Source: Pseudomonadota bacterium
GTDB lineage: Bacteria; Pseudomonadota; Gammaproteobacteria; Acidiferrobacterales; UBA6901
NCBI GenBank assembly: GCA_021785795.1
Contig: JAJYEK010000175.1
Location: 1-7,690, forward strand
Direction of reading: 5' to 3'
Length of the DNA: 7,690 nucleotides
Part shown: piece by piece, positions 1 through 7,690 of the stretch
Layout of the letters: each line of letters starts with the position of its first letter
Numbering within the stretch: the first letter of the stretch is position 1
Position numbers and translations under genes: made by a program
The notes under the pieces: model-generated
Database searches by the model: none
What the model was told of the DNA's origin: nothing
Seen by the model: the letters and a program-made list of their open reading frames with translations, nothing else

Positions 1-3000
1 CTCGGCCGCCAGTTCGGTCGATGCCTGGTAAGCGTAGTAACACACCGCCTCCATGGAACGATCGGCAAATTCCACGGCTTCCTGCGAAGCATAGGGGATG
101 CGCATCGCATACAGGCTGTCCTGAAAGCCCATGATGCCCAGCCCGACCGGACGGTGCTTGAGATTGGAGGTGCGCGCCTTGCCTACCGCGTAGAAATTGA
201 CATCGACCACATTGTCCAGCATGCGCATCGCCACACGCGTGGTGCGTTCGAGCTTGGCATGGTCCAGCTGCTTGCCGCCCTTGCCGTCATCCATCAGATG
301 CTGCAACAGGTTGACCGACCCCAGATTGCACACGGCAATTTCGGTTGCCGAGGTGTTGAGGGTGATTTCCGTGTTGTGGGTAATGATCCCGTTCACAGTC
401 CAGGCATGGTCTTCGGAGTCCACCGTCAGGCAATAAGCGTCCTCGTTGGGCAGCTCGAGCAGCTCCACGAACTCGGCATCGGTTTTTTGAGAATAGCCCG
501 GACGTGTCAAATGCCCCAGATACCGGGCATTGCCCCGCGCGGCGCCGAGTCCGACCACTTCTTCCGCCAAGCGGCAGCCCTGGGTGGATGTCACCAGTAA
601 GCGATACAGCGCCCGGCAAGAGTAGGCGGCACTGCCGCCGTGGCCATTAGGGAGCAGATGCTCGCCTGCTCCCCGCATCAGGGTCAAAGAGGACTTGATT
701 CCGAAGTTTAGCCAGAGCAGCTGAACGTCCTCCAGCAGCCGCTTGTCGATAGACGTCAGCGCGAGAGAGGTAACCCCGTCGGCGCTCGCTTGAACGGAGC
801 CGTCACAGAGGTAGAGTCCGCGCAAATAAGCGGAACAGGTTTCTCTTGAGCCATGCCAAACAAAGGCAGGCACGGTGGTCTTGGTTTCCTCCGTGATGCC
901 ATGCGCTGCAAATATCCTGCACAATTCCACGGAATGCAGGAAATGCTTGGCAGCGTGCCGAGATCCGCGGGCTACTGGCTGCCGGGCACCCCTGCCGCAA
1001 CCCGGTGCGCGGCCCTCAATGCATCGCGCGGCGGCCCGCTCCACCTCAGCAATGAAGTCGGAGTCGGCCTTGGTATGCCACAGATCAATCCGCACCGTAT
1101 TGCGAGAAAAAGTACCGTCCCCGGCAAGAAGTCCGGCCAACAATGCCAGATCCGTGTCGGAAGGGGTATCCGGGAATTGTCCGATCGACTGCAGCTCCAG
1201 CCGGTCGCCCGCTTGCAAGTGCTGTGCCTCAGTCCAGCCTCGGCCCACCACCCATACGCGATGATCAGGAGTGACCTTGTGTGTATAGCCTTCTCGCGTC
1301 ACAATCTGGCGCATAGGCGCGTTCGGACGAGGCAGCAGCATAGGGGAAGCCTGGGAAATCTGTCCGCCGCGGCCAGAAACCTTGGGAGCTACCTGCGAAG
1401 CATACAGCTCCGCGACGGTTAGCAGCCCCGCGTCGGTTACGACTCGTTGATCTGCGGCGATACAGCACAGGTTCGAGCTATGCACCTGGCCTACGTGCTG
1501 CTGCGGGCTGCGGATATTGCACGGGTCCTTGAAAGTGATCCACGGATGCCCGGTCTCGAACAGCATTCCGAGCATCTTGCGCCACAACTGCACTGCGGGC
1601 AGGCGACGGAAATGGCGGATCACGCCGGATACGGTCAGCGCCTCGTAACGTTCGTAGGCTTCCTGGAATGCCTTGCCATACAGATCGTGCAGGTCGGGCA
1701 CGTCCGACGGGCTGAACAGCGTCCATTCGCCATTTTCCATGACCCGCTTCATGAACAGGTCAGGAATCCAGTTGGCGGTATTCATGTCATGCGTGCGGCG
1801 ACGGTCATCACCCGTGTTCTTGCGCAGATCGAGGAATTCCTCAATGTCGAGATGCCAGGTCTCCAGGTAGGCGCACACCGCGCCCTTGCGCTTGCCTCCG
1901 TTATGACACAGGAACGCGACGGTGCCGTAACTCTCGGCCCCCTCGACTTTGAGATCATGTACCACCGGCACCGAAGCGCAAGGACGAATCGCCTTGACTC
2001 GGGTGAACAGCCAGTTCCCCAGACGGAACGCTGAGCGTTTCTTGCTCGCCGGAAGTTGAGTGCCCGATACCAAGCGGGAGTCGGACGGAATGCGCAGGTC
2101 AATAGCCTCGGTGCCACCGGGAAATACGGCTGTGCTGCCGTTCTTGCGGCGGGCTGTGTGCGAAGTTTTGCGTTTCCGGATGGAGCCTCCGCAAGGAATG
2201 CCCAACCGGAGTAGTTGGTAGCGTACCCCCTCTGCCAGTGGGCGGGATGTCGTAGTGAAGGACAAGCCAGCCTTCGCAGAAAAACAGCCATCCGTTTGAA
2301 GCAGCCCCTGAATAAGAGCTACAGTCTGTGCCTCAGGCAAGTGGCTGAATCGGGTAGCGATTCGCTTCAAGCCTGAGGCATCGTATAAATCACCGGCATC
2401 AAACGGCATAGAGGCCAGCTTTTCGCCGGGGGCAAACCGGCCAGACTCCAGATCACGGGCCAACCCGGGACCGGCTGACCAGCGCACGCTCACGGCGGAA
2501 CCCCCATGTAGCGTGTGTTCCCAGTAATGAACTGCCCGGTCGGTCAGATATTTGCGCACACGAGCGAGCACCTCACCCTTGAAGCCTGGGTTAACGGTGA
2601 TCCCGAACTCAAAGCTGCGCTCGTTGCGTTGATAGCAGTGGCCGTCTCCGAGCAACACCCCGTAGAACCAGGCGTCCTCCGCCGTAAAGCCTGGCACAGA
2701 GACCAGTTCCTGGGGTATCACCTGAGCCAGAAAATCCCCTTCGGCCAGATCCCCTGCATCACACCAGCCAAGGGACAAAGCACCGGAATCCAGCCTAGCT
2801 TGAATTCGGTCGTATGTCTCGCCTAAAAGAACGCCGCGCAACGCGTAAACAGGGTGCCCTGCGGTCAGCCGAATTGGCTCGATAGCGTGCCTGACGGAAA
2901 TCTCCAACATGGCATCGGTCTGTTTTTGCGGGTACTGCATGCACTCGGTAACCGCCCGGTATTCCCCGCCGATACCCAGAACCAGGTCTCCACGGGCGAC

Positions 3001-4275
3001 ATCCTTGATCGGCAGGATCCCCCGGCTTGTTGGAAGCAAGGTATCAGGAGCCAGGCATTGGTTGACCGCCAGGGCGGTATCGTTCACTACCTTGAGGAAT
3101 GGCACCACACCTTGCGATTTGCCGTTGGTACCCTTGATGCGCGAACCGAGCGCACGCACCGGAGTCCAGTCGTTGCCCAGGCCGCCGGCGTACTTCTGCA
3201 GCATGGCGTTTTCCTTGATCGCCTGATAGATGCCGTCGAGGTCGTCCGATACCGTGGTCAGATAGCACGACGACAGCTGGCTGTGACGGGTTCCGGAATT
3301 GAACAGCGTCGGCGTCGAGCTCATGAAATCGAAGCTGGACAACAGGTGGTAAAACTCGATCGTGCGGGCTTCCCGGTCAACCTCGTTGAGTGCCAGGCCC
3401 ATTGCCACGCGCATGAAGAATGCTTGCGGCAATTCGATGCGCTGCTCGTTGATATGGAGGAAATAGCGGTCGTACAGCGTTTGCAGGCCAAGATAGTCGA
3501 AGGCCAGATCCCGGTCCGGCTGAATCTCGTTGGCCAACCGGGCCAGGTCGAAGTCCGCGAGTTCCGGGGCCAGCAGGCCAGCTGAGATACCCTCGCAGAC
3601 ATACGCAGTGAAGTAGCAGGCGTACCGGGCTTTCAGCGTTTCCGCGCCATCAGCCGGAAGCAGTTGATCATACATCCCGTGCAGCAAGATGCGAGCGGCA
3701 ACTTTCGAGTATTCAGGGTCCAGCTCAATTCGGCTGCGAGCGGCAAGAATAAGCGCGCGGCGGCAAGTTTCCAGGTCGGCGCCTTCGTATAAGTCGCGCG
3801 CGGCGGCCTCTGCCAGATCCACCGGGTTAGTAGCGTACAACCCAACGCACACCGTCTCTGTAAGCGCCCGCAGAGTGCTCAGGGACCCGTTCGGCACAGG
3901 CAGTGGATCAGCTGGTTCACGAGCCAGCCGTCGTTTCTCACGGTACAGCACATAAGCGCGAGCAAGCTCCGGATCATCCGAGTGCATCAGGACGGCTTCC
4001 ACCGCATCCTGGATGACCTCCACGCTCAGGGGACTGCTCTGCAGCGGGTTGGCAGCCAACTCGCACAGCACAGCGTCTACCTGCGCGGACACCCACTCGT
4101 GCGCCTCTCGGGAAGTGGCCTCCACCTGGCCATGCACGGCAACGTATGCCTTCATGATGGCTATGCGGATACGGTCGGGATCAAACGGCTGAACCTCACC
4201 GGAACGACGCAGAATAGGCAGGGACAGCAGGGTTGCATGTAGAGGGGGCAAAGCAGGGGTGAGGCTTTCAGGCAT
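1..4275 (-). CDS. nrdA: Ribonucleoside-diphosphate reductase large (alpha) subunit, class I, with two inteins; 3' end outside window
   Basis: The precursor of the catalytic subunit that reduces ribonucleoside diphosphates to deoxynucleotides in the cytoplasm. The frame is open for 1425 codons with no stop and leaves the window at position 1. The ATG at 4275-4273 has a GGAG ribosome site 5 nt upstream. Residues about 18-120 form an ATP-cone (GEVQPFDPDRIR, ARAYVLYREKRR), the allosteric dATP/ATP site. The barrel includes NSGTRHSQLSSCYL with C337, equivalent to E. coli C225. It also has GGLGNDWTPVRALGSRIKG, FKDPCNIRSP with C919 (likely thiyl-radical Cys, C439 equivalent) and HSSNLC with C937 (C462 equivalent). 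Two inteins occupy residues 407-792 and 938-1301, leaving exteins of 406, 145 and at least 124 residues. Intein-free relatives of this type are around 950 aa, so roughly 280 residues should lie beyond the edge. nrdB is not in the window. Extein identity is very clear; splicing is inferred. Confidence 0.97.
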   Translation of the reverse strand, partial: MPESLTPALPPLHATLLSLPILRRSGEVQPFDPDRIRIAIMKAYVAVHGQVEATSREAHEWVSAQVDAVLCELAANPLQSSPLSVEVIQDAVEAVLMHSDDPELARAYVLYREKRRLAREPADPLPVPNGSLSTLRALTETVCVGLYATNPVDLAEAAARDLYEGADLETCRRALILAARSRIELDPEYSKVAARILLHGMYDQLLPADGAETLKARYACYFTAYVCEGISAGLLAPELADFDLARLANEIQPDRDLAFDYLGLQTLYDRYFLHINEQRIELPQAFFMRVAMGLALNEVDREARTIEFYHLLSSFDFMSSTPTLFNSGTRHSQLSSCYLTTVSDDLDGIYQAIKENAMLQKYAGGLGNDWTPVRALGSRIKGTNGKSQGVVPFLKVVNDTALAVNQCLAPDTLLPTSRGILPIKDVARGDLVLGIGGEYRAVTECMQYPQKQTDAMLEISVRHAIEPIRLTAGHPVYALRGVLLGETYDRIQARLDSGALSLGWCDAGDLAEGDFLAQVIPQELVSVPGFTAEDAWFYGVLLGDGHCYQRNERSFEFGITVNPGFKGEVLARVRKYLTDRAVHYWEHTLHGGSAVSVRWSAGPGLARDLESGRFAPGEKLASMPFDAGDLYDASGLKRIATRFSHLPEAQTVALIQGLLQTDGCFSAKAGLSFTTTSRPLAEGVRYQLLRLGIPCGGSIRKRKTSHTARRKNGSTAVFPGGTEAIDLRIPSDSRLVSGTQLPASKKRSAFRLGNWLFTRVKAIRPCASVPVVHDLKVEGAESYGTVAFLCHNGGKRKGAVCAYLETWHLDIEEFLDLRKNTGDDRRRTHDMNTANWIPDLFMKRVMENGEWTLFSPSDVPDLHDLYGKAFQEAYERYEALTVSGVIRHFRRLPAVQLWRKMLGMLFETGHPWITFKDPCNIRSPQQHVGQVHSSNLCCIAADQRVVTDAGLLTVAELYASQVAPKVSGRGGQISQASPMLLPRPNAPMRQIVTREGYTHKVTPDHRVWVVGRGWTEAQHLQAGDRLELQSIGQFPDTPSDTDLALLAGLLAGDGTFSRNTVRIDLWHTKADSDFIAEVERAAARCIEGRAPGCGRGARQPVARGSRHAAKHFLHSVELCRIFAAHGITEETKTTVPAFVWHGSRETCSAYLRGLYLCDGSVQASADGVTSLALTSIDKRLLEDVQLLWLNFGIKSSLTLMRGAGEHLLPNGHGGSAAYSCRALYRLLVTSTQGCRLAEEVVGLGAARGNARYLGHLTRPGYSQKTDAEFVELLELPNEDAYCLTVDSEDHAWTVNGIITHNTEITLNTSATEIAVCNLGSVNLLQHLMDDGKGGKQLDHAKLERTTRVAMRMLDNVVDVNFYAVGKARTSNLKHRPVGLGIMGFQDSLYAMRIPYASQEAVEFADRSMEAVCYYAYQASTELAAE
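373..1464 (-). mobile_element. Intein 2 in NrdA (residues 938-1301, 364 aa, LAGLIDADG homing endonuclease)
   Basis: A second protein intron. Block A begins at C938 (CIAADQRVVTDAGLLTVAEL). Block B is HKVTPDHRVWVV with T1002 and H1005. The first endonuclease helix is LLAGLLAGDGTFS with D1053, the second is AYLRGLYLCDGSV with D1158. Block F is YCLTVDSEDHAW with H1290, and block G is GIITHN ending at N1301. The +1 extein residue is T1302, so this looks like a standard class 1 intein with all splicing residues. It lies between HSSNLC and TEITLNTS, directly after the conserved redox Cys C937. Sequence resemblance to intein 1 is limited to the family motifs, so the two were probably acquired independently rather than by recent duplication. 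Confidence 0.95.
1900..3057 (-). mobile_element. Intein 1 in NrdA (residues 407-792, 386 aa, LAGLIDADG homing endonuclease)
   Basis: A protein intron within nrdA. Block A starts at C407 (CLAPDTLLPTSRGILPIKD). Block B is LTAGHPVYAL with T471 and H474. The first LAGLIDADG helix is WFYGVLLGDG ending in D544; the second is ALIQGLLQTDG with D662, followed by the typical SFTTTSRPLAEGVRYQLLRLG segment. Block F is VVHDLKVEGAESYG and block G is CHN ending at N792. Both endonuclease acids are present, so homing activity is plausible. It interrupts the extein motif AVNQ/GGKRKGA, which is continuous in reductases without an intein. Two oddities: the residue after N792 is Gly rather than Ser, Thr or Cys, and the usual block F His (as in the HNF motif) appears replaced by E-S. 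Boundaries come from the extein match and are firm. Splicing competence is uncertain. Confidence 0.93.
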
Positions 4276-4279
4276 AGCG

Positions 4280-4283
4280 GCTC
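4280..4283 (-). promoter_or_regulatory. Ribosome binding site of nrdA
   Basis: On the minus strand GGAG precedes the ATG at 4275 by 5 nt. This supports the chosen start; the ATP-cone that follows has the expected N-terminal distance. Confidence 0.7.
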
Positions 4284-4312
4284 CGGGAGATAAATGATAG
4301 CGAGACAACTTG

Positions 4313-4318
4313 AATATA
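4313..4318 (-). promoter_or_regulatory. Candidate -10 box of the nrdA promoter
   Basis: The minus strand reads GCGCTATATTCAAG here, with a TATATT -10-like hexamer about 38 nt upstream of the nrdA ATG. It resembles the element at 6321-6330 (GCGCTATATT). The hexamer at -35 with a 17-nt spacer is TGCAGC, a poor match, so the promoter may need an activator or use the upstream GC sequence. I see no clear NrdR box of the ACAC-N8-GTGT kind. Confidence 0.4.
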
Positions 4319-4359
4319 GCGCTAGCGGTTGGGCGGCTGCAGGTGGCTGGCGTGGCAGC

Positions 4360-4381
4360 TTGTGCTATACTATAGGCACAA
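4360..4381 (+). promoter_or_regulatory. Promoter with overlapping dyad operator, upstream of the 120-aa gene
   Basis: An extended -10 box TGCTATACT (TATACT at 4366-4371) lies about 30 nt upstream of the ATG at 4400. It is embedded in a near-palindrome with arms TTGTGCTATA and TATAGGCACAA (one bulged G). The dyad covers the -10 region, the position expected of a repressor operator. The -35 region is weak. It belongs to a set of related elements at 4749, 6321 and 7144. Confidence 0.6.
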
Positions 4382-4399
4382 ACAGAACAGGAACGGATC

Positions 4400-4762
4400 A
4401 TGCACGAACGCTCAATAAGCCCTGAGGATCAGGGGCAGGCAGCCGCTACCGAACAGGTCCGCCAACTGGTGCGTGCTGCGGTGGCCCACAGCGGACTGTC
4501 CTACGAGGTCTACGCGGACACGCTGTCCGACACGATGGGCGCTGTATTTCCGGAAGGACACCCGGACAGAAGCCTGGCCCTCCAGCTTGCCGGTTGCGAC
4601 TATATTCCGGCTGCAGACCGCAAAGCGACGCGAACCTCCTCCGACAAGACAGGCGAATGCATTCATGGGCTGGCTCCCGCCTGCTGCCCCTGCGGTTGTG
4701 GTGATGCCGAGCAGCCATGCCTACCTGGTGCGTGCGAAGCATTGCCGCAGCTATACTATTAG
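4400..4762 (+). CDS. Hypothetical 120-aa protein with Cys-rich C-terminal tail
   Basis: I do not recognise the family. The ATG at 4400 has AGGA 7 nt upstream and the promoter at 4360-4381. Residues 1-75 are soluble and probably helical (TEQVRQLVRAAVAHSGLSYE, YADTLSDTMGAVFPEG). Residues 87-112 carry seven of the eight cysteines plus a His (C87, H89, C95, C96, C98, C100, C107, C112), a spacing that could bind zinc or another metal. No signal peptide or membrane segment is visible. Codon use is GC3-rich and consistent with real coding. The last codons (LYY and stop) overlap the promoter-like element of the next gene, which starts 24 nt after the stop. It is transcribed divergently from nrdA, but a functional link is only inference. 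Confidence 0.75.
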   Translation: MHERSISPEDQGQAAATEQVRQLVRAAVAHSGLSYEVYADTLSDTMGAVFPEGHPDRSLALQLAGCDYIPAADRKATRTSSDKTGECIHGLAPACCPCGCGDAEQPCLPGACEALPQLYY

Positions 4763-4764
4763 CA
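4749..4764 (+). promoter_or_regulatory. Promoter-like element overlapping the stop codon of the 120-aa gene
   Basis: TATACT at 4752-4757 forms a -10-like box inside the last codons of the preceding gene. A short dyad GCTA/TAGC surrounds it. The -35 match is weak. It lies about 30 nt upstream of the ATG at 4787 and resembles the elements at 4360 and 6321. Confidence 0.45.
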
Positions 4765-4786
4765 TCCAGTTTATAAAGGACTTTGC

Positions 4787-5212
4787 ATGCGCCCCAAATC
4801 CCTGATGGCAGGCTCACCGGCGCAGATTGCCGCCAGCCTGCTCGCCCTGCTTCCGGCCCCTGCGTCCGCCCGCGAAGATTATTACCAAGACGCGACGAGG
4901 CGCGCGATTGCCGTTGTGCTGACGGCGTTGCGCGCCTCTGGCAAGCACGCCGTGACGAGCTTCGACCCGGTCGCGGAGTTGCTGCTGTCTGGCGATGCTC
5001 TGGTTGCTCTCGAGCAAGAACTGCCTGCAGGCGGCGCTCGTTCGGCCCTTGTTCTCTTCCTGGACGAGTATCGAACCCGAATGGCTAATGGTGAGGTTCG
5101 GCTGCGGCAGGACTTGCTGGAGCATTCGTTTGGCGCCGTGCTGGGACAGCTACGTACCCGGCTGAGTGAGGGCAGCGCTGACAGGGCGGTGAATGGGGCC
5201 GCGCATGCCTGA
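4787..5212 (+). CDS. 141-aa alpha-helical protein, possibly related to an internal segment of a type IV coupling protein
   Basis: The ATG at 4787 is preceded by AAAGGA with a 6-nt spacer, a strong ribosome site. The segments SPAQIAASLLALLP, DYYQDATRRAIAVVLTALRA, DPVAELLLSGDALVALEQELP, ARSALVLFLDEYRTR and EHSFGAVLGQLRTRL recall, from memory of the family, the all-alpha region of TraD/TrbC-like coupling ATPases of conjugation systems. That region normally lies inside a much larger ATPase, and no Walker motifs are present here. It could be a fragment that became a separate gene, or an unrelated helical protein. An alternative reading is a signal peptide ending at APASA near residue 28. The 3' end overlaps the next gene, suggesting translational coupling. 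Existence of the gene is fairly sure; the family call is weak. Confidence 0.7.
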   Translation: MRPKSLMAGSPAQIAASLLALLPAPASAREDYYQDATRRAIAVVLTALRASGKHAVTSFDPVAELLLSGDALVALEQELPAGGARSALVLFLDEYRTRMANGEVRLRQDLLEHSFGAVLGQLRTRLSEGSADRAVNGAAHA

Positions 5213-6332
5213 GCAAAAGACCGCGGGACTCCGGCAACAATTACAGCGAGGCCTGCGAGGTGCTGAGGCCGAACAGGGGCTGCGGGCTCGGGACAACGAA
5301 CGTGCCCGGCAGATTCTGAGAGATCACCCAGGGTTGGCGGCCGCATTCCTGCGGGAGTTCTTCGACCCGGCCTCCGGGATTCCGCGTACGGATATTCGGC
5401 GGGGGCTGGCTGTGCCGGCGCTGGACAACCAGGTTGGCTGGGGGCTGGGAGCGCGCCTTCTGGAGCTACTGGTTGGCGAAGGGTTTATCCGTTGGGACGG
5501 GCCTGATATCGGCTATAGCTTGACCCGCCACGGCCGAGCCCTGGCCCTGGATGTGCCCGTGGTTCCGCTGGAATCTGTCGTGCTGGCCGTGTCTGCCCCT
5601 CGTCGGGAAATTGCGGGCCGTGTCGTTGGCTCGGGGTATGCCGCTCTGCATGCGGCACCAATTTGTTTCGAGCCGGGTTCGTGGGAGGCGTGGTTCGACG
5701 GGGCAGCCGCACCGACCAACCCCGGTGAGTGCTCCATCGGTTTCGTACTGAAGAGTCCGGACGGGCAAGTGCTCCGATACGGGGAGGCCACCGGATTTGG
5801 CACAAACAACGAAGCGGAGTACGCAGCCTGTGAAGCGGCCGTTGAGCGATTGCTAGCGCTCGGCGCCAAAGAAGCCTTGGTGTACGGCGATAGCAAGTTA
5901 GTAATTAACCAGGTTAACGGAGACTGGGCTTGCAGAGCTCCTGTCCTGCAGCGTTATTGCTCGGCTGTCCGTAAGCTGACCCGCTCGATAAAGCTCCGGT
6001 TTGTATGGATTCCGCGGGAGGAAAACCAGGAGGCGGACGCCCTGACGCAGGAAGCCCTGAGCCCAGTCCTGGGCCGAGCCTGGGAAGGGAATGCGTCCGA
6101 TTATGGCAGGCTTACCGATATCGGGCTGCTGCTGCAACCGGTGGTTTCCGCGGTAAACGTCGGGAAAATGCTGGACAAGCTAGGGCTGAGGCACAGCGGG
6201 CTTCCTACCGGGGCAGCGGTAGACCAGGGCCTCGGCAGAGCGTACGAGTCAAAGTATGGACTCAAGGCCGACTGGCACCTGGAAAAGGTTGCTGCCTTGC
6301 TTGGGCGCGCGCGTGGGCCCGCGCTATATTAA
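5193..6332 (+). CDS. RNase H type 1 domain protein with winged-helix-like N-terminus and extra C-terminal domain
   Basis: The protein is 379 aa from the ATG at 5193, or 375 aa from the ATG at 5205, which overlaps the upstream stop as ATGCCTGA and may be the true start. Residues about 163-290 are a type 1 RNase H fold: WFDGAA (D169), TNNEAEYAACEAA (E209), YGDSKLVINQVNG (D233), WIPREENQEADALTQ (D282). All four catalytic acidic residues are there, so cleavage of RNA in RNA-DNA hybrids is likely. Residues about 60-118 resemble a winged helix (LGARLLELLVGEGFI, then a wing GYSLTRHG). Residues about 304-370 (YGRLTDIGLLLQPVVSA, LDKLGLR, WHLEKVAALL) form another small domain that may bind DNA. Stand-alone RNase HI is near 150 aa, so this is a multidomain form. 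The catalytic assignment is strong; the roles of the flanking domains are inference. The last codons overlap the promoter-like dyad of the following gene. Confidence 0.88.
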   Translation: MGPRMPEQKTAGLRQQLQRGLRGAEAEQGLRARDNERARQILRDHPGLAAAFLREFFDPASGIPRTDIRRGLAVPALDNQVGWGLGARLLELLVGEGFIRWDGPDIGYSLTRHGRALALDVPVVPLESVVLAVSAPRREIAGRVVGSGYAALHAAPICFEPGSWEAWFDGAAAPTNPGECSIGFVLKSPDGQVLRYGEATGFGTNNEAEYAACEAAVERLLALGAKEALVYGDSKLVINQVNGDWACRAPVLQRYCSAVRKLTRSIKLRFVWIPREENQEADALTQEALSPVLGRAWEGNASDYGRLTDIGLLLQPVVSAVNVGKMLDKLGLRHSGLPTGAAVDQGLGRAYESKYGLKADWHLEKVAALLGRARGPALY

Positions 6333-6339
6333 ATAGCGC
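6301..6339 (+). promoter_or_regulatory. Promoter with perfect dyad, overlapping the RNase H gene stop
   Basis: TTGGGC at 6301-6306 and TATATT at 6325-6330 are separated by 18 nt. The -10 lies in a perfect inverted repeat GCGCTAT-ATTAA-ATAGCGC (6321-6339) whose loop contains the TAA stop of the upstream gene. It should drive the 60-aa gene at 6369. The dyad may be an operator, or a hairpin in the upstream mRNA. Confidence 0.55.
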
Positions 6340-6368
6340 ACCCGCCTAACCGAGACCGAAGGAACATC

Positions 6369-6551
6369 ATGCCGAACCTGCCCGCCCCTGCCGTCCAAGA
6401 ACCAGCCAGCACGCTGAAGCCAGAAGAGCGGCAGCGGTGCGAGGTATGGACTCGCGTGATGGGCTACCATCGCCCGACCTCCTCGTTCAACATTGGAAAA
6501 AAAGGGGAGCACGCCGAGCGAATCATGTTCCGGGAACCTGCTGGCGGTTAA
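6369..6551 (+). CDS. NRDD-like mini-protein (60 aa), similar to the C-terminal tail of anaerobic ribonucleotide reductase
   Basis: The ATG at 6369 has AAGGA with a 5-nt spacer, an excellent ribosome site. Residues 20-56 (ERQRCEVWTRVMGYHRP, then SSFNIGKKGEHAERIMFRE) match the end of NrdD, where RRVCGYLGS and FNAGKQEEVKRR surround the glycyl-radical residue and zinc site. Only one Cys (C24) is kept, so the four-Cys zinc site of full NrdD is missing, but the RVxGY core is present. Small free-standing proteins of this type occur in proteobacteria and phages, where they are often annotated as anaerobic ribonucleoside-triphosphate reductase; no catalytic activity follows from that name. It lies near nrdA, and a role with reductases is inference. 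It looks complete rather than a truncated nrdD, since promoter, ribosome site and N-terminal leader are all in place. Confidence 0.85.
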   Translation: MPNLPAPAVQEPASTLKPEERQRCEVWTRVMGYHRPTSSFNIGKKGEHAERIMFREPAGG

Positions 6552-6563
6552 ACTGCTTGGAGC

Positions 6564-6592
6564 TTTTCAGCACCAAACGCTTTTGCTATACT
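6564..6592 (+). promoter_or_regulatory. Sigma70-like promoter P1
   Basis: TTTTCA (6564-6569) and an extended -10 TGCTATACT (TATACT 6587-6592) with a 17-nt spacer. It is followed by the stronger P2 16 nt later. No downstream protein gene is evident before the terminator at 6949. Confidence 0.55.
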
Positions 6593-6607
6593 GAACCACG
6601 CAGTCTA

Positions 6608-6635
6608 TTGACAACCGGCCGCAACCCTGTATAAT
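6608..6635 (+). promoter_or_regulatory. Consensus sigma70 promoter P2
   Basis: TTGACA (6608-6613) and TATAAT (6630-6635) with a 16-nt spacer: both hexamers are perfect consensus. Transcription should start near 6642. The first ATG downstream (6643) is closed after three codons, so the transcript appears non-coding up to the terminator at 6949-6984. Confidence 0.8.
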
Positions 6636-6660
6636 AGTACGCATGAGTCGTTGACCCGGT

Positions 6661-6791
6661 GCGCGACAAGCCCCGCCGTTCAGGGCGGGGAAGGATAGCG
6701 CGGACGGCGTAGCCGTCCTTGAGTTTCAGTGGGGTGTCTGCTGCTGTTCGATGTACTGTCGCACGATGGAAATCGGCGCACCGCCACAGGA
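6661..6791 (-). mobile_element. IS200/IS605-family right-end relic
   Basis: On the minus strand the last codons of a Y1 transposase are followed by two hairpins: GGACGGC/GCCGTCC (6702-6718) and CCCCGCC/GGCGGGG (6671-6690). This arrangement is typical of the right end of IS200/IS605 elements, which end in subterminal hairpins instead of inverted repeats. No intact transposase is present, so the element cannot move on its own. Its outer boundary is uncertain, near 6661-6670. The hairpin at 6860-6892 could be the left end of an internally deleted, MITE-like copy. Confidence 0.7.
6726..6791 (-). pseudogene. tnpA: C-terminal remnant of a Y1 (TnpA) transposase
   Basis: Twenty-one codons and a TGA on the minus strand read SCGGAPISIVRQYIEQQQ and then TPH. 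This is the usual C-terminus of IS200/IS605 TnpA. The catalytic HUH and Tyr motifs are absent. Upstream codons (NSHPQPASAAATV) remain open but match poorly, so the deletion joint lies around 6792-6830. Confidence 0.75.
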
Positions 6792-6859
6792 TACTGTGGC
6801 GGCCGCCGAGGCTGGCTGTGGATGCGAGTTGATCAGGCGCACCAACCGGTGGCTAGAGG

Positions 6860-6892
6860 AGTTCGTAGAGGCAGTATAAGCCTCTACGAACT
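6860..6892. repeat. Long perfect inverted repeat (13-bp stem)
   Basis: Arms AGTTCGTAGAGGC and GCCTCTACGAACT with loop AGTATAA. No T-tract follows, so it is not an intrinsic terminator. It may be the left-end hairpin of the IS200/IS605 derivative or a helix of the candidate RNA. Confidence 0.7.
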
Positions 6893-6948
6893 GTGGGGAC
6901 CGCCCTGGCAGACGGCGGTTCTCCTAACCGAGAATAGTCTGCTAATTC

Positions 6949-6984
6949 AACTCCGACCCTTCACCGGGTCGGAGTTTTTATTTT
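6949..6984 (+). terminator. Rho-independent terminator
   Basis: An 11-bp perfect stem (AACTCCGACCC with GGGTCGGAGTT), a 6-nt loop and a tail TTTTTATTTT. The T-tract is on the plus strand only, so it ends transcripts from P1/P2. Its 3' arm contains GGAG, which could serve as ribosome site for the reading frame that begins at 6985. Confidence 0.88.
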
Positions 6985-7158
6985 GTGCGCGGGTATCGCT
7001 ACCGGTTCGACTTCCGCCGGTTCTACAGACAACGACTAGGCGGCCTGTGCACTGTGTACTCGCCCACCGGGGAGCACGAGCGAAAGCTGCTGTGCAAGCT
7101 GCCACTGTGGCGGCAACAGCCGGCTCCAGCCAACACCCATGTAGCGGCGCTGTACTAA
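6985..7158 (+). CDS. Possible 57-aa hypothetical protein
   Basis: The frame from the GTG at 6985 encodes a basic, aromatic-rich peptide: VRGYRYRFDFRRFYRQRLGG, then LCTVYSPTGEHERKLLCKL, ending THVAALY. I do not recognise it. Codon use is GC3-rich with mostly common codons, as in a real gene, and no ATG exists in frame (the frame opens at 6946). The likely ribosome site is GGAG at 6971-6974, 10 nt upstream, inside the 3' arm of the terminator, so expression would need read-through and might be attenuated. The final codons overlap a promoter-like dyad, the same arrangement as in the 120-aa and RNase H genes, which supports it being a genuine gene. It is too short for certainty. Confidence 0.45.
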   Translation: MRGYRYRFDFRRFYRQRLGGLCTVYSPTGEHERKLLCKLPLWRQQPAPANTHVAALY

Positions 7159-7168
7159 ATAGTGCCGC
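7144..7168 (+). promoter_or_regulatory. Dyad element overlapping the stop of the 57-aa frame
   Basis: GCGCTGTACTAAATAGTGC (7148-7166 core) matches the element at 6321-6339 at 16 of 19 positions. The extended stem 7144-7153/7159-7168 has 10 pairs, including two G-U, with ACTAA as loop. TGTACT could act as a weak -10. The two changes within the stem keep pairing as G-U in RNA, consistent with a conserved RNA hairpin or a shared operator. Confidence 0.45.
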
Positions 7169-7217
7169 CGGGCTAACAATGGATTACCTCGTCCGACAAC
7201 CGGGTTCACATCGAAAA

Positions 7218-7252
7218 GAAAATGGCGATAATACAGAATTATCGCCATTTTC
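7218..7252. terminator. Perfect hairpin, probable bidirectional terminator
   Basis: A 15-bp perfect stem (GAAAATGGCGATAAT / ATTATCGCCATTTTC) with loop ACAGA. On the minus strand the stem is followed by TTTTC-rich sequence; on the plus strand the T-run is the end of the stem. It lies between convergent genes, where a two-way terminator is expected. Confidence 0.7.
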
Positions 7253-7255
7253 GAT

Positions 7256-7287
7256 AAAAAGAACCCCAAGCCTCACGGCCTGGGGTT
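7256..7287 (-). terminator. Rho-independent terminator of the Toprim gene
   Basis: The minus strand reads AACCCCAGGCC-GTGA-GGCTTGGGGTT and then CTTTTT. The one imperfect pair is a G-U wobble on the minus strand but an A-C mismatch on the plus strand, so it is tuned for the minus-strand gene. The stem overlaps the TAA stop at 7289-7287. Confidence 0.8.
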
Positions 7288-7690
7288 TAATTTTTGATTT
7301 GCGTGCGGGCTTCCAGCCATCGGGCATAGGCCGCCTGCAAATTGGCCGCTCCCCGGGCGTTCAGGGTATCCAGCCAATCCTGGCTGCAGCCTGAGCCATC
7401 CGCAGCGGCGGGTGCCATGTGAACTATCACTTCCGCCTGACGGTGCCAGCGCTTGACGCACTTCTTGGCCGCCTGGGCACCACGATTGCTGGTTGTATCC
7501 AGATCGGCCCAGACATGCACCTCCGTCACCCAACTGGGCAAGGTCAAGGCCTCCAACAGCCCAGCATTCCCTGCCGCCCAGAAGGATCCACGCGGAGCTG
7601 CCCCGGAAACGATCCGGCGAACGGCAAGGGTGGTCTCGATTCCTTCAGCCAGGTGCAGCACCGGGCTTGTCCGATCCGTGATCAGAGATC
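7287..7690 (-). CDS. Toprim-domain protein (primase/helicase-like), C-terminal part; 5' end outside window
   Basis: The minus-strand frame is open to the right edge and ends at TAA 7289-7287, giving about 134 visible residues. LHLAEGIETTLAV carries the Toprim glutamate, and WVTEVHVWADLDTT carries the metal-binding Asp pair (D-x-D). Together they define the Toprim fold used by primases and topoisomerases. The EGIET form is common in plasmid- and phage-borne primase-like proteins whose N-terminal half has a zinc-binding or DnaG-like region. Here that half lies outside the window, so primase activity is inferred. A GTG at 7661-7659 could be taken as a start but is inside the conserved block, so it is not used. 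The gene converges on the plus-strand set, separated by two terminators. A role in replication initiation of a mobile element is the simplest reading. Confidence 0.85.
   Translation of the reverse strand, partial: SLITDRTSPVLHLAEGIETTLAVRRIVSGAAPRGSFWAAGNAGLLEALTLPSWVTEVHVWADLDTTSNRGAQAAKKCVKRWHRQAEVIVHMAPAAADGSGCSQDWLDTLNARGAANLQAAYARWLEARTQIKN

Follow-up and report, generated by a model that had tools for sequence, protein, structure and literature searches.

The window analysed here is a stretch of 7,690 nucleotides from a bacterium of the Pseudomonadota (assembly GCA_021785795.1, contig JAJYEK010000175.1, positions 1 to 7,690). Its first part (1..4275, minus strand) is occupied by nrdA, the gene encoding the large subunit of class I ribonucleotide reductase, which is interrupted by two inteins. 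The gene starts with an ATG at 4275 and its product matches PF02867 (4e-112), PF00317 and PF03477 and exceeds the cut-off of NF005544; the edge of the window at base 1 cuts nrdA, whose C-terminal end lies beyond it. According to the translation and to the alignment with intein-free NrdA, the N-extein (3058..4275, minus strand) ends with NDTALAVNQ, and the extein separating both inteins (1465..1899, minus strand) starts with GGKRKGAVCAY. Between them lies intein 1 (1900..3057, minus strand), the subject of this work, which directly precedes a glycine. Textbooks place inteins before Cys, Ser or Thr.

An intein followed by glycine

Intein 1 comprises 386 residues (residues 407-792 of NrdA), from Cys1 to His385-Asn386, and carries a LAGLIDADG endonuclease domain (LAGLIDADG_3, 2.2e-9), although taken alone it stays below the threshold of the Pfam Intein_splicing profile. 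Its junctions read ALAVNQ/CLAPDT on the N-terminal side and AFLCHN/GGKRKGA on the C-terminal side (slashes mark junctions). The initial annotation had placed it at 1897..3057; the end at 3057 is right but the start is not, since 1897-1899 is the codon of the +1 residue, Gly793, which has no side chain, and the intein begins at 1900. On the minus strand, the codon of Cys1, the putative thioester former, lies at 3055..3057, Thr65-x-x-His68 of block B at 2854..2865, Asp138 (LLGDG) and Asp256 (QTDG) of the endonuclease at 2644..2646 and 2290..2292, Asp368 of block F at 1954..1956 and the terminal His385-Asn386 at 1900..1905. As previously claimed, the reading frame and both endonuclease Asp are intact, and the usual block F His is replaced, the family alignment placing Glu375 (1933..1935, minus strand, within GAESYG) at its position.

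The intein-free NrdA of the Azospira plasmid pAZI09 (L233) matches the protein up to Q406, continues with NQGGKRKGAVCAYLETWH and reads NQGGKRKG across the site of intein 1, the aligned pieces being 54, 71 and 73% identical. As this alignment is exact at Q/G, no shift of the junction gives a Ser, Thr or Cys at +1, and the +1 Gly, already pointed out in the initial annotation, is real. A misplaced junction concealing a Ser, Thr or Cys at +1 is thus refuted by this alignment and by 200 relatives with the same junction; nothing was found in its favour, and its probability is negligible.

The intein family at the Q/G site of NrdA

A protein search with the intein 1 region, which scored the 7995 candidates sharing the most words with it, recovered 753 proteins. 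The best 120 are 48-54% identical to the intein of the window, and all 120 share the Q/G site, Cys1, the final Asn and the +1 Gly; their penultimate residue is His (117), Ser (2) or Arg (1). A scan of genomes, one per species, confirmed 147 stretches. Among the best 80 of these loci, all 80 display these same four features without any stop codon in the intein, which ends with His-Asn (77), Arg-Asn (2) or Ser-Asn (1). The titles of the records, which partly correspond to metagenome bins, mention Gamma- and Betaproteobacteria, Actinobacteria, Verrucomicrobia, Acidobacteria and Chlamydiae. The search for other reductase inteins at the QGG site that had been recommended from the start thus shows that the +1 Gly is a trait of the family and not a defect of the window copy.

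The second intein site of NrdA (SNLC/.../TEI) served as a control in the same proteins: +1 is Thr in all 8 regular expression matches, of which 7 are clear intein ends and one (P0260) is probably a chance match. In the window, this site (SSNLC/TEI) is occupied by intein 2 (373-1464, minus strand), which comprises 364 residues from Cys1 to His-Asn, is followed by Thr and displays an ordinary class 1 arrangement; the intein-free NrdA of pAZI09 spans this second junction from C937 to T1302.

Viral contigs led to two further groups of inteins at the matching site of NrdA. In the first one (L097 type), +1 is Ser in 119 of the best 120 of 700 matches and Gly in the remaining one (P0235), and the block F position of the 116 parsed inteins is occupied by His (112) or Asn (4). 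In the second one (L098 type), +1 is Gly at all C-junctions of the best 120 of 930 matches, the site being VDQ/GGGKR, or NQ/GGKR in P0300, and the block F His is found in all 119 parsed inteins. All three groups were pooled: 355 of the 360 listed proteins, 97 of the 98 loci (L075, which has masked bases, was dropped), the window, L106 and L107 gave 455 inteins, 429 of them distinct. For the unparsed proteins, only the C-junction was read; P0164, P0206, P0209 and P0213 end with HN/SG and P0314 with HN/GGG. Cys1, the block B His, Asp368 and the final Asn are present in 455 of the 455 inteins, the parser having required a final Asn and a C, S, T or A at position 1; the block B Thr is present in 451. 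At +1, 339 inteins have Gly and the other 116 have Ser. All 339 +1-Gly inteins have Cys1, the block B His and the block F Asp, and 333 have the penultimate His. The endonuclease residues are nearly as constant, Asp138 and Asp256 being found in 119 and 120 of the 121 rows of the alignment, respectively.

The block F His is present in only 2 of the 204 inteins of the window's clade, whereas 121 other +1-Gly inteins have it. Its loss is therefore a trait of this clade and not of +1 Gly as such. Furthermore, passages of the literature indicate that this His is dispensable for Asn cyclisation in some inteins (PMC4031507), which means that lacking it does not point to decay. In a tree of 62 representatives, the window's clade, the clade of the L098 type (GGG clade) and the Ser clade have SH-aLRT supports of 99, 89 and 97. 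On this tree, the +1 residue changes once and the state of the block F His twice, the root being placed at the midpoint, which does not fix the ancestral +1 state. A covariation of the +1 residue with the block F His, suggested by the counts, was rejected, as the tree provides a single independent pair. Two deeply branching clades share the +1 Gly, which is therefore more than a transient state.

Does the host site impose this glycine? The initial annotation considered that insertion within the QGG motif forces it. Gly is indeed the usual residue, the same NrdA pattern with Gly being found in at least 120 contigs, and VDQGGGKRKG is the sequence of three phages that lack the intein and are close to the Ser clade. 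However, the homologous clade has Ser in 119 of its 120 listed members and one intein-free viral NrdA (L112) reads NQSGKRKG, although a second, longer pattern with Ser had no match in the scan of contigs. Hence, the +1 Gly is not wholly forced by the host motif. As Ser is tolerated at the site and yet Gly is kept in 339 inteins, a heavy cost of +1 Gly is unlikely.

Some more distant arrangements were also observed. In a huge phage record (LR756504.1, L237, 290-3100), NrdA is broken at the same site by an apparent naturally split intein. The N-half (VDQ/CFLEG..., Hint_2 match) ends in a stop codon and is followed by a separate open reading frame of 307 residues without Pfam match; the C-half reads NNHTYQVDGLGLVHN followed by GGGK, +1 being Gly again. 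Four codons further on lies a match to a group I intron (RF00028, 60.4 bits, 2687-2966), which the Rfam scan of the whole locus at the gathering threshold had missed. Another viral contig (L238) carries the same N-half. Distant relatives of the intein found in a different gene (L099-L101 and L102) have a +1 Ser (HN/SNIK) and the block F His.

Selection, signs of homing and possible host dependence

Over 26 pairs of loci, the median ratio of non-synonymous to synonymous substitution rates is 0.103 in the splicing part (largest value 0.252), 0.122 in the endonuclease (largest value 0.266) and 0.082 in the extein on either side (largest value 0.258). The intein family is thus under purifying selection.

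These values concern the family, and a decay of the window copy itself, which would splice badly, was also considered. Of the 128 positions that are conserved in 93% or more of 202 rows of the family, this copy departs at 24, more than any other row, L106 being a close second; the window copy and L106 are among the most divergent members of the family. In particular, it has Gly378 where relatives have Met or Gln and Cys384 where they have Ala or Val (window 1933-1950 and 1906-1908, minus strand). However, it keeps its frame, Cys1, Thr65, His68, Asp368, His385, Asn386 and both endonuclease Asp; furthermore, most of the departures (17 of 24) affect the endonuclease part, and a similar picture is seen in other divergent members. 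Decay is thus very unlikely.

The distribution of the intein is patchy. Among 151 genomes of the family to which G016 belongs, 3 have a full-length intein, 87 an intact AVNQGGK site and 61 neither, with no overlap. In 200 random genomes from the phylum of G020, the only full-length match is that of G020 itself, beside 3 weak partial matches. The intein is therefore inserted in frame at a single conserved site of a host gene for which empty alleles exist, as expected for a homing intein, and it has the LAGLIDADG motifs with both Asp, from which endonuclease activity is predicted. In two Halomonas loci (L041 and L054), synonymous divergence is 0.08-0.09 in the intein but 0.39 in the extein around it, pointing to a recent passage of the intein from one species to another. 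When phage and plasmid records were searched for relatives of the intein, only weak matches were obtained.

The dependence of the hosts on the interrupted gene was evaluated in 32 genomes picked among the best 80 loci (isolates and larger bins). Half of them (16) have no match to PF02867 (large subunit of classes I and II) other than the intein-bearing nrdA, and all 16 encode a small subunit. A class III reductase (NRDD) match was found in 11 of these 16 genomes and none in the five others, i.e. Thiofilum flexile (L035), an uncultured Pseudomonadales chromosome (L049), Thiolinea disciformis (L056), Thiothrix eikelboomii (L063) and Macromonas bipunctata (L077). Provided that these genomes are indeed as complete as they seem, the supply of DNA precursors in these hosts would hang on the fate of the intein-bearing NrdA precursor. 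The initial annotation envisaged poor splicing, dominant cleavage and an effect on the supply of NrdA; this view is not supported, as the arrangement is stable across the family, is subject to purifying selection and occurs in the sole detected reductase of several genomes.

Beyond nrdA, the window carries an open reading frame encoding an RNase H-like protein (5193-6332, plus strand; RVT_3, 5e-17) and a Toprim_3 reading frame that is left open (7287-7688, minus strand; 4.6e-11). With such neighbours, nrdA could lie on a plasmid or a phage. Toprim proteins resembling that of the window were observed on plasmids (30 records, less than 60% identity). A long hairpin (ATGGCGATAATacagAATTATCGCCAT), spotted by eye at about 7210-7290, is closely followed by a terminator-like repeat.

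Possible splicing route and relationships with known systems

Conservation throughout the family, purifying selection and genomes with a sole reductase together make productive splicing without a +1 nucleophile likely, and we consider productive splicing as highly probable. Indeed, with Cys1, the block B residues and the His-Asn end all conserved, both half-reactions would be possible, and only the ester with a +1 side chain could not form. The initial proposal of a non-standard route is thus retained: there is no usable +1 nucleophile and the splicing and endonuclease residues are intact. The interpretation that we favour, and that these comparisons render reasonably probable, is that intein 1 belongs to a large and old family of homing inteins, inserted at Q/G of class I NrdA, which would splice without a +1 side-chain nucleophile.

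The exact route can be proposed with moderate confidence by analogy. The peptide bond of the N-junction would shift to a thioester on Cys1, then the cyclisation of Asn386 would cut the C-junction. The freed and unhindered alpha-amine of Gly793 would remain in the active site and attack the Cys1 thioester, making the Gln-Gly bond directly, with no branched intermediate. Gly would be the least hindered amine for such an attack. Sortases proceed in a similar manner, using the amine of a glycine to resolve a thioester on Cys. A comparable order of events, with an N-terminal thioester and Asn cyclisation followed by attack of the thioester by the freed amine, appears in passages devoted to A-type bacterial intein-like (BIL) domains (PMC4031507).

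Several points weigh against this interpretation. The case for splicing is drawn wholly from comparisons of sequences. The other 16 of the 32 genomes carry a further PF02867 match, and the status of only reductase could fail in draft genomes. Cleavage products predominate in A-type BILs according to the same passages (PMC4031507), BILs are described as yielding mainly cleaved products in parts of another article (PMC7664689), and A-type BILs as unable to ligate in parts of a third one (PMC7765530). Lastly, the pattern of hydroxyl residues at position 352 may leave room for a substitute nucleophile.

The NrdA pieces might thus result from the cutting of both junctions without splicing and act as a non-covalent complex, which is fairly unlikely. 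Such cleavage needs the same Cys1 and Asn and agrees with what is described for BILs (PMC4031507, PMC7664689, PMC7765530), and the naturally split NrdA of phage Aeh1 is presented as fully functional in passages of its description (PMC2988022). However, the penultimate His is kept in 333 of the 339 +1-Gly inteins and both junctions are under purifying selection. Moreover, the cuts would fall inside the strictly conserved NQGGKR stretch, which we take to be loop 2, the link between the effector and substrate sites.

A residue of the intein could also take the N-extein from Cys1 ahead of the Gly amine, through a branch of block F type. Position 352 is Ser or Thr in 337 of the 339 +1-Gly inteins and Gly in 85 of the 116 +1-Ser inteins; furthermore, in the window's clade, all 121 rows keep a Ser or Thr at 376 and 120 of them keep Thr379. 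However, these last two residues are not conserved in the other +1-Gly clade, the difference at 352 tracks lineage, +1 changing once on the tree, and F:4 is Asp, not Cys, in all 455 inteins; this substitution of the nucleophile is therefore unlikely. Cys384 (CHN) was rejected as a general substitute, being present in 1 of 121 rows.

Several known systems can be compared with intein 1. Like class 1 inteins, intein 1 has Cys1, the Thr and His of block B, the block F Asp and the final His-Asn; unlike them, it lacks a Ser, Thr or Cys at +1 and would therefore form no block G branched intermediate, and its clade lost the block F His. A quantitative survey states, in the passages concerned, that inteins insert before C, S or T (PMC2814812). 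Class 3 inteins also depart from the standard steps, but they lack Cys1 or Ser1 and have a Cys at F:4, whereas Cys1 and Asp368 are found here in all 455 inteins. The +1-Ser NrdA inteins are homologous and occupy the same site, L097 being 29% identical to the first row of the query alignment; they differ by their Ser (119 of 120 listed) and their block F His (112 of 116 parsed) and could use the standard path.

The nrdA intein of Azotobacter (Avin_33290, Achr_15980) belongs to the same family and site, and the A. vinelandii CA locus (L037) has a +1 Gly. This member is presumably labelled "Avin RIR1 BIL" in InBase, and its odd +1 residue was probably noticed before. The passages reporting it describe an intein and do not mention the +1 residue (PMC4465626). 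No account of the +1-Gly NrdA inteins as a family was found in the open-licence literature, subscription papers being mostly outside that search.

In profile comparisons with solved structures, the matches include PI-PkoII (3e-9), the gp41-1 intein (2.7e-5) and a BIL domain (2lwy, 0.0014); a search with the single sequence gave no match. With A-type BIL domains, as passages of PMC4031507 present them, intein 1 shares the His-Asn end, the N-terminal thioester residue, the lack of a +1 nucleophile and the proposed amine attack. However, A-type BILs lie in variable regions of non-conserved proteins, whereas the NrdA inteins lie at one conserved site, contain a LAGLIDADG endonuclease and show features suggestive of homing. 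They are thus likely a true family of homing inteins with a BIL-like chemistry. More tentatively, the +1-Gly NrdA inteins could be a separate mechanistic class, in which Gly is a fitting acyl acceptor and not a defect, Asn cyclises first, the amine attacks the Cys1 thioester without an intermediate step and the product is needed by the cell; this old trait is found in two of the three clades at the site. If so, +1 side-chain nucleophiles would be dispensable for splicing in nature, and the rule for recognising inteins in genomes would be broadened. These inteins would leave a plain Gly at the joint, with no Cys or Ser scar, and would make it possible to study the ligation envisaged for BIL domains in a system that is natural and maintained by selection.
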